A DNA stretch of 64,000 nt from Henckelia pumila (lineage: Eukaryota > Streptophyta > Magnoliopsida > Lamiales > Gesneriaceae): positions 150,674,861-150,738,860 of the forward strand of contig NC_133122.1 of assembly GCF_033568475.1 (NCBI RefSeq), read 5' to 3'. Shown here piece by piece: positions 211 through 55,143 of this stretch. Below the pieces are notes generated by a model. The model was not told where the DNA came from and made no database searches. It saw nothing but the letters and a program-made list of their open reading frames with translations. A program made the position numbers and the translations under genes. The first letter of the stretch is position 1; every line of letters begins with the position of its first letter.

Positions 211-1629
211 TGATCGAGCAAATACTACCACTGAAAATCAACCTAAATATATATATCAATTAAGCTCGAATATATCGCAAGTGCACGAGTCAAGTAATAA
301 TATAGTGTACAAAGTACGAGTATCGTCCCACAGAGATTGATGTCTAACAAAATTACTCAAGTATTATTCTTTAGTTAATTAAGATAACATGATAATAAAT
401 TAATAAACTAAAATAAAAGATGGAAAAAAAACAAAATAATAAAATTAAATTCAAAAAATAAATAAACGATTGTTAGGATCTCGGTTCACCTACCCTTTTT
501 TCTTCTCTAATGATTGAAATTCAGTTCTCAAGTCATGTTTTGACGGAATTCCCTAATCTATCAATATACTATGTCGAGTTATATTAACCTAATTAACAAA
601 TTGCAATAACCAAGTGTCCTTGTGTTATTTAACAATTGCAATTGCATTACGATTTGTGGAATCCTCTAGCTTTTGACCTATTGGACTATGACTATCAACA
701 TGTATCCAACCTCATATGTCTATGTAAGTTGTAGATCCATGGACTATATTACCCTATCATGTTATAAAATCTCCTTTCAGTATCAATTATAACACATAAA
801 ATCAATTCGAAGTTGATCAATCTCCAAATAATCAATAAAAACAGTAATATAATCAAGAATGCATAAAAACCAAATTTAATCTTAAAAAAGAAATCAAAAC
901 AAAGTTTTGGGGGTAGGATCCCCTAAATCCCAACAAATATAAAAGAAAGAAGAGAAAACTAGTGTTGCGATTCTTGAGTTCTTCAAGTTTCCTCCCTCTT
1001 CACGTTCTTCTCCTTGGATGGCCGCCTCCTCCCTTGCGTTTCTGATGTGTGGAACTTCGGAACCCTTTCTCACGTCTGATATGTCCCCTTTTATATGTGG
1101 TTGAAAGCCCATCCAATAAAGCCCCAAAAAATCGCAACTTTTAATGTTAGAAAATTAATGTTTTTTCAGTCTGCGTCGCGCCATGGCGCAGAAAAGTCAC
1201 GCCATAGCATGAAAAGTTCTGTTTTCACTTCTTCAAAATCCTCGGTTCACGCCACGGCGCAGGAAAAATCACGCCATGGCTTGAAAATTTCTGCCTCCAG
1301 TTTTCAGCGCGCAGTTATCTTGAAAAAATCATAACGTGAGTTCTAACCGTCGGATTGAGCTGAAATTTTGACAACATCTTTAAAACATCTTGAAATTTAA
1401 TTTGGATAGTAAGATTCGATTTGGAGCTACCAAAAGTTAAATTTTAATTTTTGATCAAGGCTGCTCCGTAATTCATTCTTCATAAACCTATTTTCCTACA
1501 AAATTAACCCAGAGAGTGAAATGCTCATGCATGAGATTAATTACAAATAAAACATATAAAAACACACATGAAACCATATGAATGCATGCGAAATAGACAT
1601 AAAATAATGCACACAAAATGCACTTATCA
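211..1629 (-). mobile_element. LTR of an Athila/Tat-type retrotransposon (5' LTR)
   Basis: The LTR is 1419 bp and begins TGATCGAGCA and ends CACTTATCA on the + strand, giving TGAT/ATCA inverted termini. The tRNA-Asp primer site abuts its left end, so it is the 5' LTR of a minus-strand element. On the minus strand a TATA-like ATATAAAAG lies at about 1089-1098, preceded by a TGGGCTTT-type motif. Upstream of that, at 1171-1285, is a GC-rich block containing four copies of a CACGCCATGGC-like palindromic word. The insertion interrupts a copia gag gene after the reading SNINTESYGEG. The far LTR lies outside the window, so the target-site duplication cannot be confirmed; the right flank is CCGTA. 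Confidence 0.75.
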
Positions 1630-3647
1630 CCGTAAGACCCTCTCCATATGATTCAGTGTTTATATTTGACTTTTTCTGAAGTTCCTTAGATTGAATAGCA
1701 GACATAACTTCTTCCAATGTTATCGTCTGTTCTCTTCCATATAGCAAAGCATCTCTGAAATTTTCATCTGCTTTTGAAAGTGCATTCAGAAGTATCAAAG
1801 CCTGGTTGCGCTTAGTCGTGTCGCTCCCAAATTACCCGACTCAAATCGGATAAATAAATTATATAGCAGTGAGAGTAGGGTTCGTTCCCACGAGGAAAGT
1901 GAGATTTATTTGTGTTCTTAAAAATACTGGAAATAAATAAAAGGGGATTTGGAATTTAAAACAATTAACATGCAAAATCAAATTAAACTAGAGAAATCAA
2001 TTAAAAACAAGTCTTGGTATCGAACGACTACATCCTTGAAACTATTCACTTGATCATCGATTCTCTAAAAATAATTAAATCTCATTGAATATTCACCATT
2101 GAAAATCTAATTCCTATTCCACCTTAATCTTAGTTAATTAGACACCAGCGTTCTAGATTAACCTTACCAATAAATCAACCCAAATACCAGCGATCTAGAT
2201 TTAAATCTAAGGTATCATTCATATGAGTGAAACTGATGAATCTAGACAACACAAATACCAGTGATTGTATTTAATCTAGTCAATAGTTGTTCCTACGATT
2301 TAACAAATTCAACAGCAGAAAATATTAAACGCAGTTGCTTCGCAAATTAGTTTATTCAAACAATTACGTATTTGAATTCTAATTTAGCTATAGTTTGTAT
2401 GAGAGAATTATCAGGTGATCAATCTAATAATCAAACACACAAGCATATAATCAATTCAGAATAACTCTTGATACTCAAATAAATCAAACAATGAAAAATA
2501 GAATCTCACGAATAAATAAAATCAAGGGTTCGTCTTCCTCAACCAAGTATTAAAACCTTGAAGAATAAAATCTAAGAACAAGAAAGATAAAACTTAGCCT
2601 AAGCGTGTTCTTCCGTCTTCAGCCGTCTCCTCTCTGCCTCTGATGATAATCCCCTCTTTTGCGTCTCAAGATCCTATTTAAATGGCCTTGAAAGCCCACG
2701 AAATAAAGCCCGCAAAATAAGAGTTTTAAATTTTCAAATTTTTATTTTTTTTCCTGCGCCCGATATCTTGCTCGATCGGTAAAAATTAACCGATCGAGCG
2801 AGCATACTTTTGTCATCCTTATGTTTTCACAATTCTTGGTACCGATCTATCGGTTAAACTTTTCGGATCAAGCGAGCAGCTTTTTTTCCAGCGAGCAGCG
2901 ATTTTAAAAAATACATATCCAGAGATCTAGCCGTCGGATTGAGCTAAAATTTGGACAGCTGCTTCAAAACCTCTTGAATTTAATTTTGAATGGTGGATAT
3001 TAGATTTGGATTTCTTTAAAATTAAAAATAATTTTTTTGACCATTGCTGCTTCGTAATTCTTCTCTTATCTCGGCTCTTTTCTTCCATCTTTAGCTCCAT
3101 TATTCTCTTTTCCTAAATCAAACAAAAAACATTCATTAGTAACTATACAATGAATTTAATCAATGCAAACTCTTCTAATCACACCAATTAACACACATAA
3201 ATATAGTAAAATATCATCACATCAAAGCCCGATCTTCATCCTCAAGCTTTACTTCAATATTATCCAAGTCATCCAATATCTTGGTGAATTCTTCGATCTG
3301 ATTTTCAATGTTCTTATCATCCTTGATCACAAAGGAATACAACATCTGTTTCATGTACAGACGGTTAGCCAGGGATTTCATCATGTATAGATTCTCAAGC
3401 TTAAGCCACACAGCAATAGCAGATTCTTCTCTCGCCACCTCTCGAAGAGGTCTATCACCCAGACAAAGAATAATCACACTGTGTGCTTTTTCTCGAGCAA
3501 TTCATCCTTGTTCTTGATATCATCAGACATCTCCTCCTTATTCTTAAGTTCTTCCACCAATCCTTACTGTATCAGGATTGCTCGGATCTTAATTCTCCAG
3601 AGCGAGAAATCGTTCTTGCCCGTAAACTTCTCAATATCAAATTTCAT
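1630..3647 (-). pseudogene. Copia-type gag (UBN2 family), interrupted and nonsense-mutated
   Basis: Reading the minus strand from ATG at 3645-3647 gives MKFDIEKFTGKNDFSLW, then a premature TAA, then VEELKNKEEM, LCLGDRPLREV, YMMKSLANRLYMKQ and ILDDLDNIEVKLEDED. The coding sequence resumes left of a solo LTR with LLNALSKADENFRDALLYGRE and ITLEEVMSAIQSKELQ. These are the usual consecutive blocks of Ty1/copia UBN2-type gag. The gene is split at the codons for RAL/ILL by the solo LTR at 1803-3224. It is split again at 1630 by an Athila/Tat LTR. No pol is present in the window. The element is dead as it stands. Confidence 0.85.
1803..3224 (-). mobile_element. Solo LTR (Athila/Tat-like) inserted in the copia gag
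   Basis: The 1422-bp sequence begins TGGTTGCGC and ends CACATCA and is flanked by the perfect 5-bp duplication AAGCC (1798-1802 and 3225-3229). Removing it and one AAGCC restores the copia gag reading frame, so the boundaries are secure. It has no primer site or internal region, so it is a solo LTR. It shares two blocks with the neighbouring LTR at 211-1629: about 85 bp beginning GCCGTCGGATTGAGCT (near 2930 and 1348), and a TATA-proximal block with TTGAAAGCCCA and AATAAAGCCC. A hairpin with arms GCTCGATCGGT and ACCGATCGAGC sits at about 2769-2800. Confidence 0.9.
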
Positions 3648-3690
3648 TGATCCCACTATCTTTGTTTAGTTTTCCACGGACGACGCCACT

Positions 3691-4513
3691 TGTTAGGAAT
3701 CAATTAAAGTAAATTCAATATTCCGAGAATTCGCCATGCGAACATAGCAACAAGAACAATAACTCAATCCCAGATGAATAATAACACACAACTCAAATCA
3801 AACACCAACGCACGCGAAAGCGATTTAAACAACACAAATATTTACGTGGTTCGGCAAAGAATTTGCCTACGTCCACGGGAGAGCAACACAACACTTTTAT
3901 TAATCACGAACATAAGAAATCCAATCTCAAAACCAGAGCTTATTACAGAGACAGACCAGAAAACTCTAACGCTAGATACAGACACAATTCAAGCTTGTTA
4001 TCCTTGAATTCTCCCGTCACAATCTGCACCCCAGTTTTCTTCTCTGAAATCTCTCTTTTCTTCTCCCTCAAATATTTTCTGGAGGTTGAAGAATTTGATT
4101 TTCTGTTATATCGGTTGGCGTATCTATAATCTGTATATATATAGATAATTACACCTACTTTATTCTTGGGCTTTAGGTCAACAAAAACTTACGGCCCAAT
4201 TTCAAGGTCAACATGGTCCAACTCGATAAGTCTTCTCACTTCCGTTCCGTCTGATCTGCTCTAGTACATTGATCTGCCTCCAAGCTTCACTCCAGCTTTA
4301 CGGAAAATTCATCTGACTTCTAACCAATTCCTAGTACTCGAGCAATCGATCTTCTTGAACTTATCCGAAGACTCATCTGACCATTAACTTTGATCTGATC
4401 CCAGTATTTGATCTGACCATGAACTCATCTGATCACTGAACTCATCTGATCTGTACACTTCGATCTTATCTCTTCTCTATTCTCATTCAATCTGATAGAA
4501 GCACACTTCAACA
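3691..4513 (-). mobile_element. Copia LTR (5' LTR of the interrupted element)
   Basis: This 823-bp LTR starts TGTTAGGAATC and ends CACTTCAACA, with TGTT/AACA inverted termini. It lies directly upstream (minus sense) of the copia gag start codon, so it is the element's 5' LTR. The same LTR family appears as a solo LTR at 48720-49538, which confirms both ends. The primer site is not the usual TGGTATCAGAGC of copia elements: the minus strand continues AGTGGCGTCGTCCGTGG. Confidence 0.85.
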
Positions 4514-5123: not shown

Positions 5124-8119
5124 TAGACCTGGCCAAGAGCCGTGTTGGACCCAGAACCGGACCTGGACCCATCCAGTGGTCAACGGGCCGGTTAACCGGG
5201 TCAACGGGTCCAACACGGAATTGGGTCCCGATTTTCCCTTTCCAAAACTGGAAACCCGCCGGGTTGCACGGGTCTGACCCGCCGGATTGGACACTTGGTG
5301 CCCAAATGGGCGCCCAGATGGCCAGATGATCCAACGGCCACAATCTTGTGGCCGTTGGATCATTCAATGGCCACGATTTTGTGGCCTTTGGAGATCAACG
5401 ACCACGATTTCATTGCTGTTAAAACCCGGCCTACCCGGTGGGTCGACCCGCCAGGTTGTCGGTTTTTTTAAAAATTTTTTTACTTTTTATCTATAAATAC
5501 CCCCAAGTCCCCTTTCATTTTGTTTACACAATTCTCTCTTAATTCTCTCCATTCTTAATTCCTTTTAATTTCTTGGATTATCAAAAATATCAATTTTTGA
5601 TTATTGGTTTATTGTCAATTGTTGATTTATTTTCATATTCATACAATTACAAATGTCCGAAGCGGGATCAAGTCGTAGGGGTGACAAAAGAAAAGGAAAG
5701 GAAAAGAGAATCGTACCACCCGAGGTCGAGTATCCTCAATTCAATGTCGATGGCTTTGATCTTGAATATTTCGATGATGAAATTCAAGAAATTAGACAAG
5801 AGGCGCAACAAAGACAACAAGTTGAACAACCACCACGTCATCATGTAAGTCAAGAAAGTATGAACGATCCGGCGGCCTCTCAAAGACAAATTCGAGCGGT
5901 GCCTCGCTTGACATCCGATATCTTCATCAAACATTTCGACAAGGTGACGCTTCCCTCCGATGATTTGCAAACCAAATGCAAATATTGTTCAAAATGTTAC
6001 AAATTTAAACAAGGAGGTGGTTATGGAACTTTGACGCGGCATATCGAGAAAAATCATCCGGTGAAAATTGGGATTGATCGTGCTCAAACTCAAATTCCGG
6101 CATTCTCTTCTCAATCGGGTAATGAATCTCAACTATTTAAATATAACGAAGCTAGATTTAGAGAAGAAACGACTAAATTTTGTGCGGTTGAACAACTTTC
6201 TTTTAGCTTTAGCGATAAATTATCTTTTGAAAATTGGCTTTCTACAAGTGCAAATCCTTTTATTAGACGTATTCCAAGAAATAGTCTCAAACGCACAATG
6301 AAAAAGTTAGTCGTCGATCAAAAGAAAGAATTAATTAAGAAATTTTATAGTTTGAATAATAAAGTTTCTTTGTGTTCCGATGGAGTGATCATTGGCAAAG
6401 TTGTTCATATATGTGTATTACATGTCATTGGATTGATAATAATTGGAACATTCAAAAAAGGTTGCTTGCATATAGATGTTTCAACGAATCACACACGACA
6501 CAAAATATTTCTCAACTTATATTTGTTATTTTAGAATAATATGGTCTAACTACCAAAGTTTTTTCAATGTCTTTTAATAATGCTAGTGCAAATACTTCTA
6601 GTATTAGTGAGCTTATTGAAGTATGTAAATTATCACTAGGTGACAAATTTTTTCATATTAGATGTACATGTCATATTTTAAATTTGTGTGTTCAAGATGA
6701 GCTAAAAATTTTAGGCATACATATTCAACCAATTAGGAACGCTATTCATTATTTATGGACGCATCCCCAAGTTATGAAGCAATGGAGAAAATTTTGTAGA
6801 GTAAATGGTATGAAACCTAAGCGGTTTGCACGAGATGTTCCAACTCGTTGGAATTCAACATATAAATTGTTATTATCCTCTTTTGAATATAAAAATTTAT
6901 TTTGTACATTTTTTCATCAATTTATTCAAGCTCGTGATATTTATTTGTTTTAAAATCAATGGAACATATGCACTAGTATTTGTGAAATTTTAAAAGTTTT
7001 TAATGATGCTAGTGACCAATTATCCAGTGTTTATTATCCTACTTCACATTTAGTTTTAACACATTGTTGCAACATTGCTTGTGTCTTTCATGAACATGTT
7101 AAATCTAATGATAGTGCTTTATCTCAATGTATTCTCGTCATGAAAGCAAAATGGGAAAAATATTTTTCGGTCATTCCTGAAATTTTTTTATTTGCTTTTG
7201 TTTTAGATCCTAAACTTAAATTAGATGCTTAAGAGACATGTTAACATTATATTATGAATCTTTGGAGCCTATTGCGGAAACGATTCTTTCTATCTCATTG
7301 ATTTTGTTTAATATTAAAAGTCATTTACTTGATATTTATAATGAATATAACATCAAATATGGTGGTCGCAAAAACACAAATATATTCAATTTTGTCTATA
7401 TTGGCAAAAGAAATTCTAGCTTGTCTGGTTTCAACAGTTGCAGTGGAGCAAGCATTTAGTATTGGAGGAAATACATTGGACGAGAGACGTTCTATCTTAA
7501 GGTCGGAAAATTTGGAAGCCCAATGTTTGCTCAATGATTGGTCAAAATCCGCTACTCGAACACAACATATTCAAAGTGATGAAGAAGACCAAGATGATAC
7601 CGAAGGAACATCCGGAACTACGGCGGGAGGAAATGCGAGTGAATCAGAATAAAATGTAATAGATATTGAAATTCTAATATATATATATATATATATATTT
7701 ATTTAATAAATGTAATATATATTTGTTATAGAGATATGAACTATTTGATTGAATTTATTTAAAGAATATGTATTACAAAAAATATTAAAAAAATTTTGAA
7801 TAGCAAAAATCAGATTAGCGCCCAGGAGGCACGACCGCGCCTCTCATTTGGGGGGCCGCGCGGCTGCTTCGCAGAAAATAATGCGCAGCAGCCGCGCAGG
7901 TGCTAGGCGCGAGCGCGCCACCCATGCGCATTTAAAAAAATGGTGCAATTTTTTTTTTTAAATTATAAGGGTTGACTCGGACTCGGACCCGTCGATTAAC
8001 CGAACCGAAACCGCCGGTTCACCAATCCGGACCGAAACCGGCCATGGGCGAGCCGGTTAAGGGTTGGTAAAACACCAACCCTGAATCCGCGGGTCCAACC
8101 CGGACCGTGACCAGGTCTA
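5124..8119 (+). mobile_element. Decayed hAT transposon (TAGACCTGGCCA family), copy 1
   Basis: The element begins TAGACCTGGCCA and ends with the near-inverse TGACCAGGTCTA. It is flanked by an imperfect 8-bp duplication, TGATTATA (5116-5123) and CGATTATA (8120-8127), as expected of hAT insertions. Both subterminal regions are packed with GGTCCGGNNC-type words, probable transposase-binding repeats. The internal gene is a broken copy of the transposase that is intact in the second element at 54697-58015, in the opposite orientation. The 3' untranslated side carries a GC-rich palindromic block at 7816-7925 that is unrelated in sequence to the block in the other copy. Confidence 0.9.
5653..7652 (+). 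pseudogene. hAT transposase pseudogene (BED zinc finger, RICESLEEPER-like)
   Basis: The reading starts at ATG 5653 and follows the intact relative closely through the BED finger (CKYC and HIEKNH) to SLCSD. There a 4-base deletion near 6381 shifts the frame and gives a stop at 6532-6534. The correct frame resumes at 6567 (MSFNNASANTSSISE). It is then stopped by a C-to-A change at about 6951 (TCA to TAA after ARDIYLF) and again near 7230. An internal deletion of roughly 250 bp follows the codons for NIKYGG: ATGGTGG is joined to a second ATGGTGG, removing the segment before the hAT dimerisation domain. The tail, with VSTVAVEQAFSIGG and LDERRS, survives at 7400-7652. The gene cannot encode an active enzyme but could be mobilised in trans. 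Confidence 0.9.
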
Positions 8120-9362: not shown

Positions 9363-10931
9363 TCACACTATCCTCTTCTTCACTTTAACCGGCAAACCAC
9401 CCTTCATTCTTAGAGTCAGAGACAGCAAATGCTCGGGGCACTTACCTTTCTCCATCAACACTTGTATTGCAAATCTTTCCAACACAGAGGCAGCTATGGA
9501 TTTCATCTGAATATAGGCCATATCTTTCCCTAAACACATTCGGGGACCCGCGTGGAAAACCGGAAACTTAAAGGGACTTTCTTGCTTACAAATCCCATTC
9601 TCAATCCACCTTTCTGGCTTATACTCACAGCAATCTTGGCCCCATATACTCTCCATCCTCCCCATAGCATACGTGTGGTATGAAATGAACCAATCTTTGC
9701 CAATAAACGTGCCATCGGGCAAAATATCATCTTCATTGCAAGCTTTTGTGTCGATAGGCACCGGCGGATAGAGCCTCATTGCTTCTGAAATGGATGCTTG
9801 GAGATAGTGCATTTCACGCAATTCGTCGAATGTGAACATATCGCCGATTTTCTTCCCGCTCTGCCGTCGAATTTTATCTAGTTCATGAATGATTGTTTCC
9901 TCTACATCTGGTTTTGAAGATAGCAACCAAAAGAACCAAGAAAGAGCTGATGATGTAGTGTCCCTGCCGGCTAAAATGAAGCTAATAACAATATCCCTCA
10001 AATACCCAACAGAATTCTCGCCATTTCCTATGAATCTTGACAACAAATCCTCATCTTTCTTCTCAGATTTCTCCTCCATTCTCGTACTAATTATCTTATC
10101 AGCAAAATCATAAACAGTAGCAATAGATTTTTTCAATTTTCTCTCCGATCCCAGATTGAAAAACTTCTTAATTACATATAATCTCGGCAGAGCATACATG
10201 AATCTACCGGAACTGAGCGTGGCAGCATCCTCAAACGCCTGCATGAATTCGCCACCCGTGTTTCCATCTCCGCCCAGACAACCTGGATCAACATTAAACG
10301 CAAGTTTACAGATGTTATCAAACGCAAATCTTTCGAGAATGTCTTGCGCATCCAGAACCCTCTCCTCCGCCGCCGCCGTTTCAAGAATCGGGACCAAACG
10401 CTTCCGCAACTCCACGGTTACGTTTTCCATGACGAAATTCCGGAGGGATTTCGTATTAAACTCGTAACTCGCCGTTTTGCGCTGAATCCTCCACAATTCC
10501 CCATCCCTGTTGAAGATGCCACCTCCTAGGAAATCTTCGAGAAGGCTTCTGAATCGTACGCCTTTTGGGTAGTTGTCGAAGTGGGATTTCAGCATGTGCT
10601 CCACTAGTTGCGGGTTGGCATGGATGACGCCGTAAACTTTTCCGGGGCGGTAGAAGACGGCGGAGTTGGTGGGGCAATTGGACAGTATTTCGGTGCTCCA
10701 GTCTAGGAAGCGGTGGCGGTTGCGGAGGAAGTCCGGCAGAGAACCGACTAGCGGGTAGCTCCTGAATCCGTACACTGATTTCTTGGATTTTGCAGGGAAA
10801 AAGAATATGTAAAAGTAGAGTGAAATGAAGAAGATGAAGAGAAGAAAGAGGATTACCATATCTGCGGATAGAATTGGAGAAGGGATCGAACTGGGTGGTG
10901 ATATTATATAAAGATCAGTGGATTTCAGCAC
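9363..10931 (-). CDS. Cytochrome P450, CYP94 family (fatty-acid omega-hydroxylase-like)
   Basis: An intact single-exon class II P450, 522 aa from the first ATG. A hydrophobic ER anchor spans about residues 26-46 and is followed by KSKK. Other landmarks are SYPLVGSLP (58-66), the I-helix oxygen-activation motif AGRDTTSS (321-328), the K-helix ExxR as EAMR (383-386), PERW (439-442) and the haem loop FHAGPRMCLG (459-468) with C466 as thiolate ligand. The lack of introns and this haem loop point to CYP94, closest by eye to the A or D subfamilies. CYP94 enzymes omega-hydroxylate fatty acids at the ER (cutin or signalling lipids); some members oxidise jasmonoyl-isoleucine, and the sequence alone does not decide. 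The start may really be M25 (10857-10859): a TATA box lies between M1 and M25, and M25 gives a 498-aa protein with the usual N-terminal anchor. No damage is visible. Confidence 0.93.
   Translation of the reverse strand: MLKSTDLYIISPPSSIPSPILSADMVILFLLFIFFISLYFYIFFFPAKSKKSVYGFRSYPLVGSLPDFLRNRHRFLDWSTEILSNCPTNSAVFYRPGKVYGVIHANPQLVEHMLKSHFDNYPKGVRFRSLLEDFLGGGIFNRDGELWRIQRKTASYEFNTKSLRNFVMENVTVELRKRLVPILETAAAEERVLDAQDILERFAFDNICKLAFNVDPGCLGGDGNTGGEFMQAFEDAATLSSGRFMYALPRLYVIKKFFNLGSERKLKKSIATVYDFADKIISTRMEEKSEKKDEDLLSRFIGNGENSVGYLRDIVISFILAGRDTTSSALSWFFWLLSSKPDVEETIIHELDKIRRQSGKKIGDMFTFDELREMHYLQASISEAMRLYPPVPIDTKACNEDDILPDGTFIGKDWFISYHTYAMGRMESIWGQDCCEYKPERWIENGICKQESPFKFPVFHAGPRMCLGKDMAYIQMKSIAASVLERFAIQVLMEKGKCPEHLLSLTLRMKGGLPVKVKKRIV
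10901..10913 (-). promoter_or_regulatory. TATA box of the CYP94 gene
   Basis: The minus strand reads TTTATATAATAT. It lies about 42 bp upstream of the second in-frame ATG (10857-10859) but downstream of the first ATG. Transcription starting about 30 bp from this box would exclude the first ATG. This supports M25 as the start codon, with a very short leader. That is an inference from spacing only. Confidence 0.5.
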
Positions 10932-13900
10932 CAGAAAGCCGACAATATTGGCGTAATAATTTTTCTTTCTTTCTTTCGTTTTTATGATGAATATTGGAAC
11001 AATATTTTGGGATTTATTTGGACCCTTGTTTGGGAAATATTAATCAATACAAAATATCACTCACATTCTTTCCAAAATCAATATTACCACCCGACTTTCT
11101 CCCTCTCAAAATATATTACTTTTTATGTAAAAACATTTATACATGTGAAAATATATTATTTTTTATGTAATTTTTTTTATAAAATTATCTAATGGAACAA
11201 TTTTTTTTAAATACATCTCTCTTATTTAATTAGATCTATGAAAAAAATTAATTAACATAGATGATTTGGTTCTCAATCAATTGAGTTAAATTTGAATTTA
11301 AATGTAGTTAAATGATGGAGTAAATAAATTTATTACTAAACCAGTTGGCATGAATTTAAAATTTAAATATAGAATCTCCTAATTCTGAAAAAAAAAACAA
11401 AACAAAAAAAACAAAACAAAAAATTCTTCCTAAACCAACCGTTCAAACCAAATTACTCAAAATTAGCATAAGTAAATTCACAAAAGATACTAAAAAGTAA
11501 AAACCCAAAATTTGTGTCAAATTACGTTTGATTTAAACTTCATCCTCTAAATTTAATACAACCTTGATTGCTTGAATTTTACCAAGAAATCTATATATTG
11601 CACGTCAATGGACGACTTACCAGAAAAGAGCAAAATTTTGTTATTTTCTACAAATAATAATTTTACACTTCTTGATCTTCTAACTGACTAAAGTAGTATT
11701 TGCAACCTCTAAAAATAAGTGATTATGAAGATTTTCTTCATTAGTGTTTGCAACCTCTAAAAATAAGTAATGAAGAGAATTTCCATAATCACTTATTTTT
11801 TATAGGTTGCAAACACTACCTAAAACGGGTTACTAATGGTTTAGTTTTATCCAGCACTAGCATGCACGTCTCTGATTGTACCATATTATAAAAAACGCAA
11901 TACAATTTACCTTACGGAATTGCATGCATAATTTTTGTTATTTTATGGGAAAGTTTTGCTCTCTCTATTTAATTTTGATGTATAAAAAAGCAAATTCGAC
12001 GGTGTTTTTTCCTCTTAGATTTGCTAATCACTTAAAATCTATCGGTTATGATCAAAGACGAACTGAAAGTGTTAGGGTCAAAATTATGGAATATTGTGAC
12101 ATAATATAAATGCCTTTCTAGTGATTCATCTCGTATGGAGTTAACTGATAAATTCCTCTCTATTGGCTTATATTATATATAGTATCTATACCTCTATATT
12201 ATGAATGTGTTTGGTTACGGAAATCAACAAAAAAAGCATTTATTTTTTTTAAAAGTGTTTTTCTTAAAAATTTAGGCGTTTGGTTACTTCAGCCATTTTA
12301 AAAAAAACACTTATTTAAGTTCAAATTTGTGTTTTTTTAAAAGTCAAAAATTTTGGCTTTTTGACTTCTGCTTCTGTTTCAATTTAAAAAATTACTTTAT
12401 CAACATTTATCCAACGCTAAAACCGCTTTTGTTTTTTAAAAAAAAAAATAAAAACACTTTAAGCTGGACTTATTTAAGTGCTTTTTTAAGCCAATGATTT
12501 TTATATCCAAATTGGCTCTATATTATAAAGAGATAGCACACCTCACTAACTACTTTGGTGTGACCACCTAAAAAGAGGAAGCACTCTTAGTTGTTTAATT
12601 CAAAACTAATCAAGAAAGAAATTGCTCCTAAAAATGATTATTTTCTAAAGTTAATTATCACAGGAAAAACCAAGTTAATTTTTTTAATTTTTTTTAAAAA
12701 TAATTAAAACTGACTATTTTTTTTACATGCTATACCACACACATACATCGGGTGTGTTCCTTCCACTAACATAATTGGATCCTTCATCCTTTTCAGTGGC
12801 GTATTATATATAATTACGAAGTGTACATCTTTTTAGAGCATGTTTCTACTTATTGTATTGCTTGAATATGATATAATTGTTAACTTCTTTGTGTTACTTT
12901 TTGTATTATTTATTGTTGAGTTTTCCTGATGGTAATTTGGTTTTTTTTTTTTTTCAATTACCGTTGTTCTTGTACAAAATGTTTGTATTTGATCTTTAAC
13001 GAATGACATGTATAGTTGATATTACATTGGTAACATAAAGTAATGTATTTACAAAAAATTAACATGAAGGGATTGTGATGTGGAAAACTAGTTTGAGTTC
13101 TTATATGATATCATAAAATAAGATCACAAATTAGTTGAAACAATATGAAAAAACCAACTCAAATATTGTTCTTTGTTGTCTAGCATGGAGTTATTTAAAG
13201 AAATAGCTTGTAAAATTAGTTTAATTAGTTTAAAGTTCCATGGGTAATATATTGCTTAATGATATTCAATTGACATAACTATTATCCAAACAAACAACTT
13301 TGGTTCCCGGTAAGATATATATATCGTCTAGCAGAATATAATAAAGGCTGAAAACAATCATGAAACTATGAAAGCAAAACAAGCTTATATCCACATTAAA
13401 TTTTATTTTTGAATTTCGAATGAATATTAAATTTGTGAAAGTTTCGTTCCAGACTTCCGGTGAGTGATACATACAAATACAAATAGCAATATAATGTTTT
13501 AATAATTGGATTGATGATGATCTACTTAAAAACAACGATCTAATTGGTCGGATCGTATTATCGTTTATATAATATAATATAATAAATAATATATTTTAAA
13601 TTTTAAAAACCTAAAAATTTCATATAAATAGACAAAAAAATTACCAAATTTTGGAAACTAAATTCTGTATAAATATATTTATAATATAAATTATAGTTAT
13701 ACATGTTTTTAAAATAAAAATTAATTAAATAAACTCCAATTTTATTAAAATAATAATAATTTTATTTTTTTATGACGTGAGAACCCGCCGCAACTACCTT
13801 TCGATGCGCACTGGACGAACCCTCGGACTAACTCAATAAGCTGCAAATCACGCTAATCACGTAAATCGCACTGGGCAAATTCTGTGTGACAGACTATTCC

Positions 13901-17151: not shown

Positions 17152-19311
17152 TGTGACGACCCGAGTTCTAATCTCTCAATAAACATTAATCAATAATAAT
17201 AGACAACAATCAATGTCTAAACAAAAGAATAAATTTTTTTTTTTTAAAATAGATTGCCCTGTGCACGCGCGGGCATCACCCCTCGCGTGCGCGCCGTCCA
17301 ATGAGACCGAGGTATCAAGAGCTGGCTCGCGCGCGCGCAAGTACTAGCTCGCCCGTGCGCAGGCCACTGCACCAGAAAAAAAAAGAAGGTGCTCAGCTGC
17401 TGTCAAAACTGTTCTTCATGCATTTCCATTCAAGGTCATCTCCTACAAGGTCTCATACAAGATCTAATCCATAGCAACATCTAACATGCATTCTAACATG
17501 CGATAATTGATAGGAATAAACCATTACAAGGCCTTAAATCATAATCATAAACATGCAAGAAACATTGCCATATCAACAAGAACAAGATACATCATGTTGT
17601 CTCAAAGAGTTACATCAAATCTCAAATCCTATAAACATCAACAAGATAACAACTAGATCATTTACAAGTCTTGATACAAGTATCTAAAACATGCTCATGT
17701 TTAGAATTCAACTCTACAACATGACAGCTCACTCAACTCATCTAACTCGGATCATCACATTATGTTCATCTCATCCCTTGTTCTTTAAGTACGCCTTTGC
17801 CCGGTTCCACTCCCTCCTATTGCCATGACACATACAACAAAACAATAGCCGGATAACTCCGGTGAGAAATAGATTTCCCAGTAAAAGCAACTAAACATGC
17901 ATAACAACATATATCAAGATCATGATATAAAAGTAAGTACAATGCATGTTTTCAAAACAAGGTTCATTTCGTCATTCGTCGGTTGGGATCCCGAGAAGTA
18001 GATATCATAACTAATCCACCGAATCTCCCAATCGAGGTGGGGTTACTTATCTTTCTTCTCTAGACTTTGAAGCAATCATATATGCAAATCAGACGCTAGG
18101 CTAAAACAACCACCCAGGCCATACATATACGATTCCTCAAATCATCTATTCGAACGTTTCCGTTCATTTCAAAATTAAAGAATAAGTCTTCAAGATGAAT
18201 GCAACATATATATATCATTCTCAAAGCATTCATTATAACAACAACTTATTCAATAACTCAAGGTAAAACACATAAGAGCAATTAAGCAAACAAGTATGTG
18301 ATTTAGGGGAACTCGATACAAACCATCTCGAGTTGTATTCCCAATCAAATAGTAGTCCATTTTTACCTTTCAAATGTGATGTTTGGGATGTCTTCTAACT
18401 TGTTCTAGCTTGTCCAAATCTGTACCATAAAACCCCAAAATCTATATCAAAAAGCTGCTCAATCTTCAAACAAACTTCAAGGCAAAACTCTACCAACCTT
18501 GTGATTTCTTCTATTGGTTTCAGAGGCGATGTTTTCAAGCTCAATGTGTCCTGTTTATACACTGAAAACATAGCATACAACCAAGGAAATATCAGCTATG
18601 ATACACCTCAATAGCAACTCAAGCACAAGCTAGCAAAACATTGCAAATCAAGAGTTTGACGGCATATCGGTATAACTCGGCGATCCCGAACGCAACTCTA
18701 ACAAGTCTATATTCATATCAGCTATATACCAGTCCAAAACCCCACATATCAGCAGGTATAAAAGTCGAATAATAGCTGAGAAAACATAAGAACACGATAT
18801 AACAATCAATCTTCAAGCCAATCTCAAGAACACAAAAGATAGAAGCTTAACAACAACACTTCATATCAACATCTGATATCTGTCCAATTCGACTTCTCCA
18901 ACCTTGATGAACAAAGAATAAACTTACATCAAATCGAAGGTCGTCTTGCGAGGATTCCAGAACATCTTTCGGAATCGAAATCGGATATCCGTAGCTCAAG
19001 ATATATGCATTTGAAGAAGAAGATTGAAAGTTGGAATTCTGCTCTCGGTTTCTTCCTTCTAACTTTGAGAAATCTGATGGAATAATCATATACACGTGAA
19101 TGAGTTTACAAAATCACACGTGTCCTGGTCATTTTCAGAATTTTTCACTTTGGCCCCTCAACTATGCAACAATTGCAATTCAGTCCTCACATTCTCATGT
19201 TATTCAATTTCAATCCTAATCAATTTAAGAATTTTAGAATTTAAATCAAAACTCCAAATATTCCCAAATTAATTATTCTCGGATTAAAATTAAATAATTT
19301 CGGGCGTTACA
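17152..19311 (-). mobile_element. 3' LTR of the Tekay element
   Basis: This 2160-bp repeat is the downstream LTR in the minus-strand sense. A GC-rich cassette with GCGCGCGCG runs and CTCGCCCGTGCGCAGG lies at 17257-17370, near the LTR's 3' (R/U5) side. A purine-rich tract abuts the right end (see 19312-19325). Confidence 0.9.
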
Positions 19312-19325
19312 ATTCTCTCCCACTA
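19312..19325 (-). other. Polypurine tract of the Tekay element
   Basis: The minus strand reads TAGTGGGAGAGAAT immediately before the 3' LTR, the usual plus-strand primer of gypsy reverse transcription. It is followed, farther inside, by the family-typical GATTTCGAGGACGAAATC context. Confidence 0.8.
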
Positions 19326-19412
19326 AGACACGATTTCGTCCTCGAAATCTAAAGTAATATCAACAGATCATATATCAAATATCAGATAACAGAAAATTAA
19401 AGAAAACTCACA

Positions 19413-22400
19413 TCAATGAAACATCTCAGGGAATCTTTGCTTCATATCAGATTCAGTTTCCCACGTCGCTTCTTCAATACCATGACAACTCCACTGGACT
19501 TTCACAAGTGGAATAGTCTTCGTTCGTAATTGATTTTCTTTTCGATCAAGAATCTGAATTGGCTTTTCAAAATAACTCAAGGTCTCGTCGAGTTCAGTCT
19601 CATCAGATTGAAGCACATGAGATTCATCAGCAAGATATTTTCGAAGCATCGATACATGAAAGACATCATGTATTCCAGATAACGATGGAGGAAGAGCTAA
19701 TCGATAGGCAAGATTGCCTATTTTCTCCAGAATTTCATAAGGACCGATGTAGCGTGGAGACAATTTTCCTCGTTTGCAAAATCTGACAGTGCCTCTGAAC
19801 GGAGAAATCTTCAAAAATACACGATCTCCCTGTTCAAAAGACAAAGGTCGACATCGAATGTTGGCATATTTCGTCTGTCTATCTTGAGCTGTCTTCATTC
19901 GTTTCTGAATAAGCTTCACCTGATCATTTATATCACGTATCATATCAGGACCAGTATCAGGTACTTCAGAAATATCATCCCAGTACAAAGGAGATCGACA
20001 TTTTCTTCCGTATAAAGCTTCAAAAGGAGCCATTCCTATACTCGATTGATAGCTGTTGTTGTACGAGAATTCACAAAGAGGTAGTGATTCTTGCCAACTA
20101 GTGCCAAAATCAAGCACTACAGCTCTCAACATGTCCTCCAATGTTTGAATAGTATGCTTTGACTGTTCGTCAGTCTGTGGATGATAAGCTGTGCTCAAGT
20201 GTAACTGAGTACCCATAGCACTCTGTAAGCTGTGCCAAAAATGTGATGTAAATCGAGGATCACGATCTGATACAATAGATTTCGGCACTCCGTGCAATCT
20301 GACAACTTCACGGACATAAATCTCTGCCATCTGGTCGTGTCTATACGTCATGTGATACGGAATAAAACACGCTGATTTCGTCAATCTGTCAATAATTACC
20401 CAGATAGCATCACAGCCTTTAGAAGATCGAGGTAATCTAGTCACAAAGTCCATGGAAATATGATCCCATTTCCATTCCGGTACAGACAAACTCTGTAACA
20501 AACCAGGCGGTCTCTTCCTCTCAGCCTTCACCTGTTGGCAATTCAAACATCGAGCTACAAAATCAGTGATATCAGTCTTCATTTGCTTCCACCAATAATG
20601 AGCTTTCAGATCATTATACATCTTCCTACCACCAGGATGAATACTGTAACGACTACAATGCGCCTCTTTCAGTAGTTGTTGACGTACATCAGAAATATCA
20701 GGCACTACTAGGCGATTGTGAACGTAAAGAAGATCATCTCGAACCCCGTATTCAGATATATGCCCTTATCCAACTTTCTCAATCGAGTTCTGTACATTCT
20801 GATCAAGTTTCTGGGCATTTCGAATTCTTACTAATAAAGCTGGTTCAACTTGAATTTGATAGAGTCGAAGAGGTTGATAATTCGTGTCAAATACTAATCC
20901 AGATAAACAACAGTTTTCAATCAAATTTGATACACCAATCGTCGATAAGGATAAAGAACATACCTTTCAACTCAATGCATCTGCTGCTGCATTCGATTTT
21001 CCTGGATAATATTTAATCTCGCAGTCAAAGTCTTTCAGCAAATCCAGCCATCTCCGCTGTCTCATATTCAGTTCTGACTGAGAAAACAGATATTTCAAAC
21101 TCTTGTGATCAGAATAGATTTCAAATTGTTCCCCGTACAGATAATGTCGCCAAATCTTCAAAGCAAATACAATGGCGGCCAATTCAAGATCATGAATCGG
21201 ATATCTGGTCTCATGAGGCTTCAATTGTCTCGAGGCATAAGCAATTACATGACCTTGTTGCATTAGAACACAACCTAAACCTTGGTGAGATGCATCACAA
21301 TAAACAGTGAAACCACCAGTACCTGAAGGAATCGTCAATACTGGTGCACTGGTCAATCGTTTCTTCAACTCCAGAAAACTGGATTCACAAGCATCAGACC
21401 AGACAAATGGAGTATTCTTCTGAGTTAACTGAGTAATCGGCTTCGCAATACTGGAAAAATCTTTAATGAATCGACGATAATACCCAGCCAAACCCATAAA
21501 ACTTCGGATCTCAGGAACAGATGTCGGTCTCGACCAACTGGTCACTGCCTCGACTTTACTTGGATCCACAGAAATACCATTTCCAGATATAATATGTCCA
21601 AGAAAGACAACCTGTTTCAGCCAAAACTCGCATTTCGACAGTTTAGCATACAGTTTCTCGGCTCTTAAAGTCTTCAATACTGTTCTCAAATGTTCAGAAT
21701 GATCAATCAAATTCTTTGAATATATCAGAATATCATCAATAAAGATAATCACAAAATTATCTAGATACTTCCGAAATACACGGTTCATCAAAGCCATAAA
21801 CACAGCTGGAGCATTCGTCAAACCAAACGGCATAACTATAAACTCATAATGGCCATACCTGGTTCTGAACGCAGTCTTAGGAATATCAGAATCCCTAACT
21901 CTCAGCTGATGGTATCCAGATCTCAGATCGATCTTGGAATACACAGACGAACCCTGCAACTGATCAAATAAATCATCAATACGAGGCAAAGGGTATTTGT
22001 TCTTTACCGTAGCCTTGTTCAGTTGCCGGTAGTCGATACATAATCTCATTGAACCGTCTTTCTTTCTAACAAACAGTACTGGAGCTCCCCAAGGAGAAAC
22101 ACTGGGTCGAATGTATCCCTTGGCCAGTAAATCTTCTAACTGTTCCTTCAATTCTTTCAGTTCAACTGGTGCCATTCGATAAGGTGCTTTCGAAATCGAT
22201 GCAGTTCCTGGCATTAGTTCTATGTTGAAATCAATCTCTCGATACGGAGGTAGTCCTGAAATCTCATCAGGGAAAACGTCCGCAAACTCACTAACCACTG
22301 GCAAATCAGCCAGGTTCGGGCTAGTTTTCAACACATCAACTGCATAAACAAGAAATCCCTCTGCTCTTTTCTGCAAAAGTCGGGTCATAGATAATACAGA

Positions 22401-24413: not shown

Positions 24414-24431
24414 TGTCTTGCTTTGATATCA
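24414..24431 (-). other. Primer-binding site of the Tekay element
   Basis: Just inside the 5' LTR the minus strand reads GGTGATATCAAAGCAAGAC, a degenerate match to TGGTATCAGAGC, which pairs with initiator tRNA-Met. It is offset a few bases from the LTR end. Confidence 0.6.
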
Positions 24432-24436
24432 CCTGT

Positions 24437-44902: not shown

Positions 44903-45480
44903 AGTAGTATCAGAGACATGTTTATCTCATTCTGAAACATGTATTGCAAAAGTTATGGCATCCTTCAGCAAGATTCTCATGTTCTCAAAAGAATATTTCG
45001 ATTACTGGAGAATCAGAATGAAATCACATCTTATAGCACAATACGCGTGATGACATGTGGTATGTCATCACGCGTATTGTGCTGTAAGATGTCACTGATG
45101 GTCCAATTTCAATTATGAAGGCCAATCCAATAGTTGTTGTAACAGAAGGTGCGCTACAAAAGATTGAAAAACACAGAATCGAGTGGACCAATGATGATAA
45201 TAAAAAAGATAACCTTGTCAATGTACAAATAAATATTTTCTAAAAAAAAAAATCTTAACAAAAATACGTTCAGCAAAATCAAGATGTGTTATTATGCAAA
45301 CCAAATTTGGGAAAAGCTAATATAGCTATGTGAAGAAAATAGTCAAACAAATGAAAACAATCTCTCTATAACAATACAAAAGTTTGAAAATGTCAAAATG
45401 AGAGATGTAGAATATTTGAATGACTTTTATGAAAGATTCAAAAATATTATCATCGATTTATCAGCTATTGGAAAGAGTAC
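44903..45480 (+). pseudogene. Copia primer site and gag remnant
   Basis: After the primer site (44903-44917) an ATG at 44955 opens MASFSKILMFSKEYFDYW and RIRMKSHLIAQYA, then hits a stop. Further gag is readable as DDMWYVIT, VTEGALQKIEKHRIEW and YLNDFYERFKNIIIDLSAIG across several frames. This matches copia gag of the UBN2 kind. The reading is broken at a 31-bp inverted duplication (45026-45092) that inserts foreign codons between WYVIT and TDGP. The element is cut off at about 45480 by LTR-like DNA. Confidence 0.75.
45026..45092. repeat. 31-bp inverted duplication (hairpin) inside copia gag
   Basis: Arms 45026-45056 and 45062-45092 match at 30 of 31 bases, with the loop GTGGT between them. 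The right arm is an inverted copy of flanking gag sequence, not part of the ancestral gene, because removing the excess restores WYVIT-DGP. This looks like a strand-switch event during replication or reverse transcription. Confidence 0.85.
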
Positions 45481-47983: not shown

Positions 47984-50070
47984 TTAATTAACCGAATTAC
48001 TATATAAATCCCATAAATGGTCGATTAGTGCATGTCGTAGTGCGAAGTAAGCCTCTCTATCCCTTACTTTTTTATACCGAGCAAGAAATTCTTGAAATCT
48101 TATATTTTGATCTGTAACCACTTTCACATTCTGAGTCGGTGCTTCCATCGCATCTTGGATTGGTGTATCCAAGTCACGCTCATCCTCGATGATCATGTTA
48201 TGCATTATAATGCATGCAGTCATTATATCATGCAACTGTTTCATCTTCCAAGCACGTGCCGGAGATGCTACAATTGCAAATCGTGATTGAAGTACTCCAA
48301 ATGCGCGTTTGACGTCTTTTCTACACGATTCTTGTTTCATTGCAAAATATTTTTTTTAGAACCATGTGGATCAGGAATAGTTTGTACAAGATTTGATCAT
48401 TTAGGATATATATATATACCATCAGCTAAGTATTATCCTTGATGGTACTCTTTTCCCCCAATAAAGTAGTTTGCTCGAGGAGCGATGCCTTGTGCAAGAT
48501 TTGAAAATAGATCGGATGCCTCGAGAAAATTAATGTCATTGTTAGACCCCGGCATACCAAAAAATGCATGCCATATCCAGAGATCATAATCAGCAGCTGC
48601 TTCTAAAATAATGGTCGGAGAACCACTACGACCCGCATATTGGCATGCCCATGCTGTTGGACAATTTTTCCATCTCTAATGCATACAATCCAAGCTTCCC
48701 AACATTCCAGGAAATCCATTGTTATGAATCAATCACAGAACAATTCGATATTCTGAGAATTCACCACGCAAATACACGACAACAATAACACAATCCCAGA
48801 TGAATAAGAACACACAACTCAGATCAAACACCAACACACGCGAAAGCGATTTAAACAACACAAGTATTTACGTGGTTTGGCAAGGAATTTTCCTACGTCC
48901 ACGGAAGAGAAACACAACACTTTTATTAATCACGAATAGAATCAATCCAAGCTCAAGTCAGAGCTTATTACAGAGACAGACCAGAAAACTCTAACGCTAG
49001 ATATAGACACAATTCAAGCTTGTTATCCTTGAATTATCCCGTCACAATATGCGCCCCAGTTTTATTCTCTAAAATCTCTCTTTTCTTCTCTCTCAAATAT
49101 ATTCTGGAGGTTGAAGAATTTGATTTTCTGTTATGTTCGTTGCGGCCAGCTTTCATTTGCTTATATAGATAATTACGCCGACTTTCATCTTGGACTTTAG
49201 GTCAACAACAACTTAAGGTCCAATTATAAAGTCAACATGTTCCAACCCGATAAGTCATCTTACATGAGTCTGATCTGCTCTCGTACTTCGATCTGCATTG
49301 ATCTGCCTTCAAGCTTACAGGTTCTCGGATACTTCATCTGACTTCTATCCGAGTTCCAGTACTCAAGCAATCGATCTGCATGAACTCATCCGAAGAACTC
49401 ATCTGACCATCACTTCGATCTGATCTCAGTATTCGATTTGACCATGAACTCATCTGATCACTGAATTCAACTGATCTGTACTATTTGATCTGATCTCTTC
49501 TCTGTTCCCATTCAATCTGATAGAAGCATACTTCAACATCCACGTTTTTCACCAATACGCAGTAGTCTATCAATATCAATGGGGGTAGGTGACCTTAGGT
49601 ATCGCTCTGCAAACACCTCTACAATATCACGAGATAAACGTTGAAGACATTGAATTGTAGTTGATTCTCTTATCTTAATATATTCATCAGCAGCATCTGC
49701 AGGTGTACCGTATGCCAACATCTGTATTGCAGCAGTAATTTTTTTGATTAGTAGAGAGTCCAATTCGACCAAGACCATTTAACCATTGTGTGAAATAACG
49801 ATCGTGATTCTTCACAGCATCAACAACACGAGAAAAAAAGGCCCGAGACATTCGGAAACGTCTTCGAAACATTACCTCATTGTAACTTGGATTCTCAACG
49901 AAATAATCGTTGAATAGATTACGATCAGCCATTTCTCTATCACGTCGAATTACGATATTCCCGGGAATCAACCCTCTATGTTTGACTTCAGATTCATATT
50001 GATCAACATATAAAGCTGCTAAAATTGTGTTATTGGTGGCTAGGCTTCCTAATAAATTTTCTGTTTTCAT
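47984..50070 (-). pseudogene. PIF/Harbinger DDE transposase pseudogene
   Basis: Minus-strand reading in order: HRGLIPGNIVI, NLFNDYFVENP, MFRRRFRMSR; a frameshift near 49740; KITAAIQMLAYGTPADAADE, ERYLRSPTPIDIDRLL; a solo LTR insertion at GEKRG|FPGML; GMLGSLDCMH, GSPTIILEAAADYDLWIWHA, FFGMPGSNNDIN, then KQESCRKDVKRAFGVLQSRF and MTACIIMHNMIIEDERD. This is the plant ALP1-like DDE_4 transposase. Nonsense changes include TGG to TAG after MH (MHWKWKN in relatives) and a TAA within KEYHQGYYLADG. A short TA expansion lies in the same place. It cannot be functional. Confidence 0.88.
48720..49538 (-). mobile_element. Solo copia LTR within the Harbinger transposase
   Basis: The 819-bp LTR begins TGTTATGAATCAATC and ends ATACTTCAACA and is the same family as 3691-4513. 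Flanks are TCCAT (48715-48719) and TCCAC (49539-49543), a 5-bp duplication with one mismatch. Removing it restores the transposase reading RGFPGML. It postdates the Harbinger insertion. Confidence 0.9.
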
Positions 50071-53130: not shown

Positions 53131-53335
53131 GGGAAGTTCTATGCCACCCCAAAGGGCACTGCCCTGGGGTGGCGTGGCAACTCGTGATTGGTTAAAATTA
53201 GTGGGCATTATGATGCCCACTAATTTTAACCAATCACGAGTTGCCACGCCACCCCATGGTGCCCACTGATTTTAACCAATCACGAGTTATAATGCCACTC
53301 CAGGGCAGTTCCCTTGGGGTGGCATAGAACTTCCC
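53131..53335. mobile_element. Foldback MITE with 8-bp target duplication
   Basis: This 205-bp element is almost entirely palindromic: GGGAAGTTCTATGCCACCCC at the left is mirrored by GGGGTGGCATAGAACTTCCC at the right. The inner arms CAACTCGTGATTGGTTAAAA and TTTTAACCAATCACGAGTTG pair as well. The duplication CTCCTCCT flanks it (53123-53130 and 53336-53343). The 8-bp length suggests hAT origin, though the terminal bases are unusual for hAT. Confidence 0.88.
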
Positions 53336-53343
53336 CTCCTCCT

Positions 53344-54430: not shown

Positions 54431-54595
54431 AATCCCCCCACCATAGCGTTGTGTGACACTGACTCTCGAATGCGTCATGTCGATATTGGTATCCCTGCCA
54501 ATAACAAGGGAAAACACAGCATTGGTTGTCATTTTTGGGTCTTGGCTAGGATGGTTCTCCAGGTGCGAGGTGTGATTGCACCTGGCCACATATAA
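54431..54595 (+). pseudogene. Fragment of the 40S ribosomal protein SA (RPSA/p40) gene
   Basis: The frame reads [20 protein letters not shown], then [22 protein letters not shown] and ends APGHI-stop. This matches the highly conserved central segment of ribosomal protein SA (family text IAFCDTDSP and [20 protein letters not shown]). Only about 54 codons are present. Substitutions such as P to R after CDTDS and L to H/V in the FW segment show relaxed constraint. The normal protein is near 300 aa, so this is a gene fragment, duplicated or captured by a transposon. The hAT element begins 100 bp downstream. Confidence 0.88.
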
Positions 54596-54878
54596 GAAGT
54601 CTGTTTGATGTTTTTTTCTTATTGTATTATGCGACTTTGTGAAGATATGTTTTCTTATTCATGCTTTGATAGGAAAGATTGTTTTGCACATACTAGTAGA
54701 CCTGGCCACGGTCCGAGTCCGGTCCGGGTTGGCATTTAGCCAACCCTTAACCGGCCCGCCAATGGCTGGTTCCGGTCCGGGTCGATGAACCGGCGGTTCC
54801 GGTCTGGGTCCGGGTCCGGTTAACCGCCGGTTCAGGGTCCGGGCTAAACCGTCCCATTTAAAAAAAAAAAAAAAAATT

Positions 54879-55143
54879 TAGCGCCCCAGCGCTGCATTGG
54901 CGGCGCTGGGGCGCTAAATCGAAGGAGCAGCGCCCCAGCGCTTCATTTTCAGCGCTGGGGCGCTACACCTTCGAATTTAATTCAAAGGGGCAGCGCCCCA
55001 GCGCTTCATTTTAAGCGCTGGGGCACTATACCTTCGAATTCAATTCGAAGGGGCCGCGCCCCAACGCTTCATTTTCAGCGTTGGGGCGCTACACCTTCAA
55101 ATTTAATTCGAAGGGGCAGCGCTAATGCAGTGTTGGGGCGCTG
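54879..55143. repeat. 63-64 bp tandem repeat of GC-rich palindromes in the hAT 3' region
   Basis: About four units start near 54880, 54927, 54991 and 55054, with a partial fifth at 55117. Each holds AGCGCCCCAGCGC, a short TTCATTTTC spacer and GCGCTGGGGCGCT, followed by ACCTTCGAATTTAATTC. The unit at 55054 has CCCCAACGC on the left arm and GCGTTGGGG on the right, so both arms changed together and pairing is kept. The block follows the transposase stop codon by about 190 bp and would lie in its 3' untranslated region. Confidence 0.9.

Follow-up and report, generated by a model that had tools for sequence, protein, structure and literature searches.

We examined hairpin-rich blocks of transposons in a 64,000-nt stretch of the Henckelia pumila genome (NC_133122.1, positions 150,674,861 to 150,738,860 of the forward strand), which we call the window. 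Its transposons are of plant types, and a preliminary description had listed eight palindrome-bearing cassettes in them (C1 to C8). C3 and C4 lie in copies A and B of a hAT element, and the others lie in long terminal repeats (LTRs) or promoter segments of retrotransposons. We found that noncoding blocks of these transposons that are rich in guanine and cytosine (GC) mostly fold more strongly than dinucleotide-shuffled sequence, but that five coding or element-body blocks do not. The central part of the earlier observation is thereby upheld. Furthermore, turnover of a hairpin array was unusually clear among the closely related copies of one family, hAT-B. On balance, we lean toward the view that two separate, known kinds of cis-acting module have converged on a hairpin-rich look, and that hairpin DNA is unstable, rather than that the cassettes are one shared module.

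Folding of the cassettes

For each cassette, we compared the folding of the inferred sense strand with 300 dinucleotide shuffles (the ends of C1 and C2 were slightly shifted). Seven of the eight cassettes had fold z scores of -3.4 or below. The hAT cassettes C3 (7816-7925, plus strand) and C4 (54879-55143, minus strand) had scores of -4.3 and -17.6. C1 (1171-1300, minus strand; z = -3.5) and C2 (2751-2884, minus strand; z = -3.8) are at homologous places in two Athila-type copies. C6 (24540-24655, minus strand; z = -5.1) is in the 5' LTR of a Tekay insertion, C7 (29517-29636, plus strand; z = -3.9) is in a Tekay-like solo LTR, and C8 (46035-46140, minus strand as judged from base skew; z = -3.4) is in a probable gypsy LTR. 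The sole exception was C5 (17257-17370, minus strand; z = -0.9). It is the counterpart of C6 in the 3' LTR of that Tekay insertion and has accumulated mutations. The preliminary description had suggested that palindrome content be compared with shuffled sequence, and an excess over shuffles holds for seven cassettes and fails for C5. The labels "Athila" and "Tekay" are presumptive; they come from the preliminary description and from the general look of such LTRs rather than from a library of LTR families.

Among 16 flanking segments of equal length, 15 had z above -2, and the remaining one (z = -3.95) is the 3' end of hAT copy B. The flanks of C1 scored +0.5 and +1.8, and C1 itself scored only -1.4 on the plus strand. 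Five GC-rich control blocks from coding regions or element bodies scored from +0.1 to +1.8. Together, the dinucleotide shuffles and the coding controls rule out a simple GC artefact. Because the cassettes had been chosen for their palindromic look, a scan without such selection matters: in it, 13 of 33 scan windows with at least 55% GC had z < -3, compared with 62 of 1129 other scan windows. The scan windows at C5 and C8 scored -0.1 and -2.9.

Turnover of the cassette sequences

We aligned the cassettes of three pairs of related elements (hAT A and B, Athila-type C1 and C2, and Tekay C6 and C7), again with 300 dinucleotide shuffles. As the preliminary description had stated, the cassettes are in the same place within each element type even though their sequences are unrelated. 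Global alignment gave z scores of 1.7 for hAT, 1.3 for Athila-type, and 1.7 for Tekay cassettes, which were matched by 19 to 35 of the 300 shuffles, and local alignment gave -0.0 to 1.4. The flanks aligned with global z scores of 9.3 and 13.1 (hAT), 5.5 and 15.5 (Athila-type), and 4.1 and 2.2 (Tekay). Across the Athila-type segments, the tile on the cassette scored 2.3 and its neighbors 10.1 and 6.5; across the Tekay LTR, 16 tiles scored 3.1 to 17.9 and the final four scored 0.9, 1.3, 5.2, and -0.4.

Kinship among the cassettes of different elements was rejected, as four control pairs of unrelated cassettes (global z of 0.4 to 2.0) share only composition; we took the local z of 2.6 for C3 versus C7 (reached by 2 of 300 shuffles) to be chance. 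The proposal of one module common to class I and class II elements finds no support: no sequence is shared, and the position and the mode of change differ. The Athila-type cassettes are upstream of a TATA-like box, whereas the hAT cassettes are just inside the 3' subterminal block. The Tekay LTRs changed by substitution, with four of seven cassette differences at CpG sites, whereas the hAT cassettes changed by indels or by turnover of whole units. We also considered that the cassette might be an inserted mobile unit, but inspection by eye (short of a formal test) showed no target duplication flanking C3 or C4, and in the pairs unrelated sequences share one place; we rejected this idea.

Copy A of the hAT element (5124-8119, plus strand) has a broken gene, a terminal inverted repeat (TIR) of TAGACCTGG, and the target duplication TGATTATA/CGATTATA. 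Copy B (54697-58015, minus strand) has an intact open reading frame (ORF) for a 738-amino-acid transposase, TIRs of TAGACCTGG, and a perfect 8-bp target duplication (CATACTAG, at 54689-54696 and 58016-58023). The ORF matches PF02892, PF14372, and PF05699, in keeping with a transposase that has a BED finger and a C-terminal dimerization domain. The transposase domains, the short TIRs, and the 8-bp duplication place the element in the hAT superfamily. C4 is an array of units of about 63 bp, in each of which a GC hairpin (GCGCCCCAGCGCT ... AGCGCTGGGGCGC) is accompanied by an AT palindrome, and C3 is unrelated to it. Copy B also has a GC-rich 3' subterminal block (54697-54878, minus strand) and a GC-rich, hairpin-bearing 5' block (57743-58015, minus strand), both absent from the earlier list. 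The ends fold as well, with z scores of -7.9 (57743-58049) and -5.5 for the 5' and 3' ends of copy B and -7.0 and -3.1 for those of copy A. Between the two copies, dS is 0.058 and dN is 0.042 over 660 codons, the GC-rich ends mismatch at 0.20 and 0.27, and the cassettes mismatch at 0.46 over 133 alignable bases.

We then compared genomic copies of hAT-B. A search of the 885-Mb genome with the 3' coding end as the sole query gave 287 candidates, of which 40 were scored, and we analyzed 30 loci (including the window copy), every one of which had usable segments. These are the best-scoring copies and are at least 96% identical to the query, with older subfamilies outside the sample. Mean pairwise mismatch was 0.027 in the coding end, 0.026 in the 3' untranslated region (UTR), 0.087 in the cassette, and 0.060 in the 3' block. 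Gap openings per 100 nt numbered 0.05, 0.08, 2.56, and 1.80 for the same segments, so that the cassette is about 30-fold above the adjoining 3' UTR. The coefficient of variation of length was 0.27 for the cassette and 0.002 for the UTR. Nevertheless, 29 of the 30 cassettes folded with z < -3 (median -12.6), and none of the 30 UTRs did. Among the readings offered in the preliminary description, these hAT results agree best with a "hotspot of replacement," and the check that it proposed on aligned copies shows, in these 30 copies of hAT-B, that change is raised in the cassette while folding is kept. Similarly, the 5' hairpin block had 1.69 gap openings per 100 nt among 21 copies (20 fetched copies and the window copy), compared with 0.37 in the UTR and 0.45 in the coding region. 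All 18 of the checkable copies, among 20 that were fetched with both ends, were flanked by 8-bp target duplications that were perfect or had a single mismatch, which implies that they are separate insertions.

In the hAT-B arrays, the stems recur, and the number of units and the loops vary. The complete first hairpin is 40 nt. We could parse it in 25 of the 30 copies and found 25 distinct forms in 14 length classes. As a comparison, 40-bp windows of the UTR had a mean of 8.9 distinct forms among 30 copies, with at most one copy of a non-modal length. We also pooled cassettes, some of them chosen by a query that bears the cassette, and collapsed identical ones to leave 40 distinct sequences. 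From these, 33 first hairpins were parsed and all were distinct, although one of the parses, at 229 nt, is questionable. Two long forms were set aside and three cassettes had no start. Relative to the 40-nt form, 25 of 32 measurable hairpins were shorter (two of them by 1 nt), four were equal, and three were longer. Many forms cannot be expressed as one simple deletion, and some look center-flipped by eye. Nearly every hAT-B copy examined has its own version of the cassette, which points to instability of the hairpins themselves. In IMG/VR, no relatives were confirmed, and three pattern matches failed tblastn.

The claim of fast turnover with structure kept, which is strongly supported for hAT, has one Tekay pair and one Athila-type pair behind it for the LTR cassettes. 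The two Athila-type promoter or LTR segments are at 1063-1479 and 2652-3064 on the minus strand. C1 contains CCATGGCG repeats (its assignment to an Athila/Tat-type LTR or promoter is that of the preliminary description), and C2 contains an 11-bp stem around CGATCG. Both are followed by a TATA-like box, as had been proposed: CATATAAAAGGGG at 1085-1097 (minus strand) is about 75 bp downstream of C1 and aligns with the second copy, in which TTTAAATAGG (sense; 2673-2685, minus strand) is about 65 bp downstream of C2. The ratio of observed to expected CpG is 1.34 in C1 and 1.78 in C2. The commonest GC-containing 6-mers of these cassettes occur four times over both strands.

The chromovirus-like (Tekay) insertion spans 17152-26598 on the minus strand, and its LTRs are 98.7% identical. 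Profile matches to gag, protease, reverse transcriptase, RNase H, SH3, and the zinc-binding part of integrase were above the cut-offs; the integrase core, at 24.7 bits against a cut-off of 32.6, and the chromodomain, at 19.5 bits against 25.1, gave weak matches below them. Between the two LTRs, the cassette has differences at 7 of 116 positions, compared with 20 of 2045 elsewhere (Fisher P = 3.9e-4). The seven comprise four CpG-site transitions and three transversions. At non-CpG sites, the cassette has 3 differences in 76 positions and the rest has 17 in 1955 (P = 0.036). Thus, the pace of change since insertion has been higher in this cassette, in part through CpG sites, and the hairpin of C5 has become weaker. 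Directly downstream of C6 in the sense direction are the AT-rich TATTTAAA and an A13 tract; as evidence for a promoter, TATTTAAA is weaker than the Athila-type TATA-like boxes. Away from its cassette, the Tekay-like solo LTR (about 27591-29760, with the 3' end not fixed; plus strand) is homologous to the LTR of the Tekay insertion. The probable gypsy LTR around 46035 is on the minus strand if base skew is a guide, and C8 matched neither the Tekay LTR nor the Athila-type segments.

As a separate observation, just 13 of the 27 substitutions between the Tekay LTRs (17152-26598) are transitions, and many are C/A or G/T changes. This is a low ratio for methylated plant DNA.

Explanations for the turnover

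If two kinds of module have converged, then the LTR cassette would be a promoter-proximal, CpG-rich array of dyad-symmetric U3 sites upstream of a TATA-like box, similar to those known from Sirevirus and Del LTRs; for the LTR elements, this is the most economical interpretation. The array would probably be bound by host factors and might also be a target of silencing. In the hAT family, both ends appear to be made of GC-rich hairpins, and the 3' cassette, placed after the transposase gene and before the 3' subterminal block, would be an array of hairpins that varies in length. Its role would probably be in the function of the ends, either in assembly of the transposase or in limiting gap repair, as is said of Tam3. 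Some dyad structure would be kept, presumably by selection, while the letters turn over, with hairpin DNA as a mutation hotspot: in hAT, the centers of hairpins would be lost or flipped and the array would gain or lose whole units, and in the Tekay LTR, CpG-rich sites would decay faster. The data show the position, the folding, the lost homology in three pairs, and the excess of indels in hAT; from these we infer that the fast change is due to the instability of hairpin DNA.

Several results weigh against this reading. Across 20-bp blocks of the hAT ends, the number of indels was not significantly correlated with predicted pairing (rho = 0.23, P = 0.14 and rho = 0.29, P = 0.08), nor was it in blocks with at least 50% GC (P = 0.12 and 0.79), so hairpins, as opposed to GC-rich or repetitive sequence, are not proved to be the cause of the indels; many of the hAT-end indels are in homopolymer tracts. 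The cassette and the 3' block were delimited by BLAST hits, with at least one segment (L036) apparently cut short, which may add gaps. One copy (L057), the only one whose cassette does not fold, has lost nearly the whole cassette. Between copies A and B, the AT-rich UTRs also changed faster (mismatch of 0.15 and 0.215) than dS. As for the LTRs, turnover was seen in one pair per family (for Tekay, one LTR pair and one inter-family pair). The Tekay 3' flank is marginal at its global z of 2.2, the zone of lost homology reaches about 110 bp past the cassette, and the tile on the 3' half of the cassette still aligns (the z of 5.2 above). In the Athila-type pair, the tile at 1060-951, which is past the TATA-like box, likewise aligns no better than chance (z = 1.1). 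Considering CG sites alone, the Tekay cassette (4 of 40) does not differ significantly from the rest of the LTR (3 of 90; P = 0.20).

The hairpins might instead be products of mutation alone, formed when reverse transcription or gap repair switches templates and then decaying quickly, without any purpose; we would see them since the copies are young. Every parsed first hairpin of hAT is distinct and the array of units resembles the products of slippage or duplication, as this would predict. However, 29 of 30 hAT-B cassettes fold strongly even though shortened first hairpins predominate, and position is kept in three pairs (this retention could still reflect recency), so we consider mutation alone to be rather unlikely. 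Improbable, in our judgment, is a single module of class I and class II elements that acts in RNA, through 3' UTR hairpins that contribute to small-RNA production or RNA stability, as the preliminary description proposed. The hAT cassette is in the likely 3' UTR, and in LTR elements U3 likewise falls within the 3' portion of the RNA. Passages of a maize study report that hairpin regions carry more small RNAs (PMC10760457). But the control alignments found no shared sequence, and position and change mode differ.

Errors of assembly or sequencing at GC-rich hairpins could also make all of the parsed first hairpins differ, and hairpins and homopolymers are difficult templates. Yet loops and units that are specific to subfamilies recur among the copies, and 51 of 72 other hairpin loops (identified with six strict patterns) have both arms intact. 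Errors would need to be selective to produce this, which makes them a quite improbable source of the hAT variants. Least of all do we expect CpG deamination alone to account for the divergence of the cassettes. It could explain the four CpG transitions among the seven Tekay differences and the 4 of 40 CG sites changed in the cassette versus 3 of 90 elsewhere, but the non-CpG sites of that cassette are raised too, and the differences among hAT cassettes are largely indels, which disfavors deamination for hAT.

Instability of hairpin DNA could act in a more specific way in hAT, although we think this unlikely: the hairpin might be rewritten at or soon after each transposition, so that each insertion keeps a private scar. 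An unstable hairpin would be cut or skipped at its center during excision, repair, or replication, and unit duplication together with selection would retain at least one working hairpin. If so, the hAT cassette would be a self-scarring barcode of insertions, and the same instability at U3 dyads would explain the fast turnover of LTR promoters. The fast change of regulatory modules in plant transposons has been explained by escape from host control, according to passages on the Del and Tnt1 elements (PMC4029996, PMC1838419). With near-identical genes and UTRs beside a hairpin array rich in gap openings in 30 copies, hAT-B is a measurable case that could separate structural instability from selection as the driver of turnover and could time the change relative to transposition.

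Parts of this picture have precedents. Passages on the Sireviruses describe palindromic CGG-CCG motifs that are family-specific and form CpG islands in the LTR, with a TATA on average 37 bp downstream (Bousios 2010, PMC2829016). C1 and C2 are likewise palindromic, CpG-rich arrays shortly upstream of a TATA-like box. Unlike the Sireviruses, which those passages describe as copia elements with at least eight copies of one motif, these are gypsy-type LTRs with a few larger dyads. We did not find the near-identical motif copies that mark a Sirevirus and make no such assignment; the cassettes may work alike without being members. The passages on Sirevirus motifs do not mention hAT elements (PMC2829016). 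For Del LTRs, the relevant passages describe CpG islands of which the 5' one is the most variable, a "moving target" (Cruz 2014, PMC4029996); the variable island is found in monocots, with eudicot Del elements lacking any there, and the 3' island is conserved. The terms "palindrom" and "hairpin" are never used in that paper (PMC4029996). If its label is right, the Tekay insertion is of the same chromovirus lineage as Del, but its island is on the 3' side of the LTR, unlike the variable island on the 5' side that is described for Del. Another element with regulatory turnover, Tnt1, is of the copia type. Its U3 is described as hypervariable across the Tnt1 superfamily and its coding region as conserved in passages of a paper that never uses the term "palindrom" (PMC1838419). 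The LTR elements of the window are like Tnt1, so described, in the turnover of a putatively regulatory U3 alongside a conserved coding region.

Tam3, a hAT element of Antirrhinum, has low-free-energy hairpins in both end regions, and its copies are described as uniform; Yamashita in 1999 reportedly found that its hairpin ends are resistant to gap repair. Copies A and B are similar to Tam3 in being hAT elements with low-energy hairpins at both ends, but their end hairpins are hypervariable, unlike the uniform copies of Tam3. The 5' terminal region of Tam3, which has transposase-binding motifs, is a target of repressive small RNAs (PMC12449043). In maize, passages of a study report that few hAT elements have hairpins and that these are biased to the terminal inverted repeats, and that LTR hairpins are common and linked to small RNAs; the study proposes that small-RNA production and cis-regulatory structure are in a tug of war (PMC10760457). 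The passages on hairpins do not test turnover per copy at a single hairpin (PMC10760457). A further paper deals with insertion sites and has no bearing on the cassettes (PMC6911290). Thus, of the cassette phenomenon that the preliminary description presented as new, the LTR part is already in print, at least in the passages cited above (PMC2829016, PMC4029996, PMC1838419). Among the matches listed in a search of the open-access literature, no paper dealt with hairpins that turn over from copy to copy within a plant hAT family.

GC-rich blocks and other features of the window

The overall GC content of the window is 34%. With a threshold of at least 60% GC in 100-bp windows, we identified 13 GC-rich blocks, of which six were on the earlier list, including 54680-55007, which is part of C4 joined to the 3' end of hAT B. 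The seven others are three hAT ends, three blocks in P450 or exonuclease-domain ORFs, and one apparent gypsy remnant. So the statement that strongly GC-rich blocks are nearly all cassettes was wrong; nor are C1 (maximum of 52% GC) and C2 (43%) strongly GC-rich. C5 and C6 are not independent, as they belong to the two LTRs of a single insertion. The observed to expected ratio of CpG is 1.08 to 1.78 in the cassettes, compared with 0.70 to 0.92 in the remaining LTR regions; in the hAT core it is 1.05, which is already high outside the cassette.

Runs of at least 10 A or T nucleotides number just 18 in the whole window. Such a run is within 30 bp of five of the eight cassettes and of two hAT B ends (one run is common to C4 and the hAT B 3' end), compared with 2% of random blocks and none of the five GC-rich coding or element-body blocks. 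The runs that edge GC-rich hairpin blocks (10 to 17 nt) are at 7949, 17234, 24519, 24661, 29637, 54860, and 57737. They may be nucleosome-poor features of promoters or ends, or else products of slippage.

Strong palindromes also occur at 26% to 50% GC. Near position 53131 (z = -15.7), 53131-53335 is a near-perfect inverted repeat with about 50% GC and 47-bp arms that are 98% complementary. It resembles a miniature inverted-repeat transposable element, as do the inverted repeats at 44991-45100 (39% GC, z = -11.9) and 11693-11825 (26% GC, z = -9.1 at 11716). A 208-bp tandem duplication (97%) at 62632-63062 contains long TA runs that form inverted repeats, and it adjoins an ORF with a 3'-5' exonuclease domain (61961-62608, minus strand). 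Two repeat copies, at 3690-4513 and 48719-49538, are 85% identical over about 830 bp, and an ORF within the first copy (3785-4129) had no match in Pfam. A plant DDE transposase (Pfam Plant_tran), which we take to be of the PIF/Harbinger type, survives as a remnant at 47984-48355. Finally, a cytochrome P450 ORF of 558 amino acids is at 9363-11039 on the minus strand.

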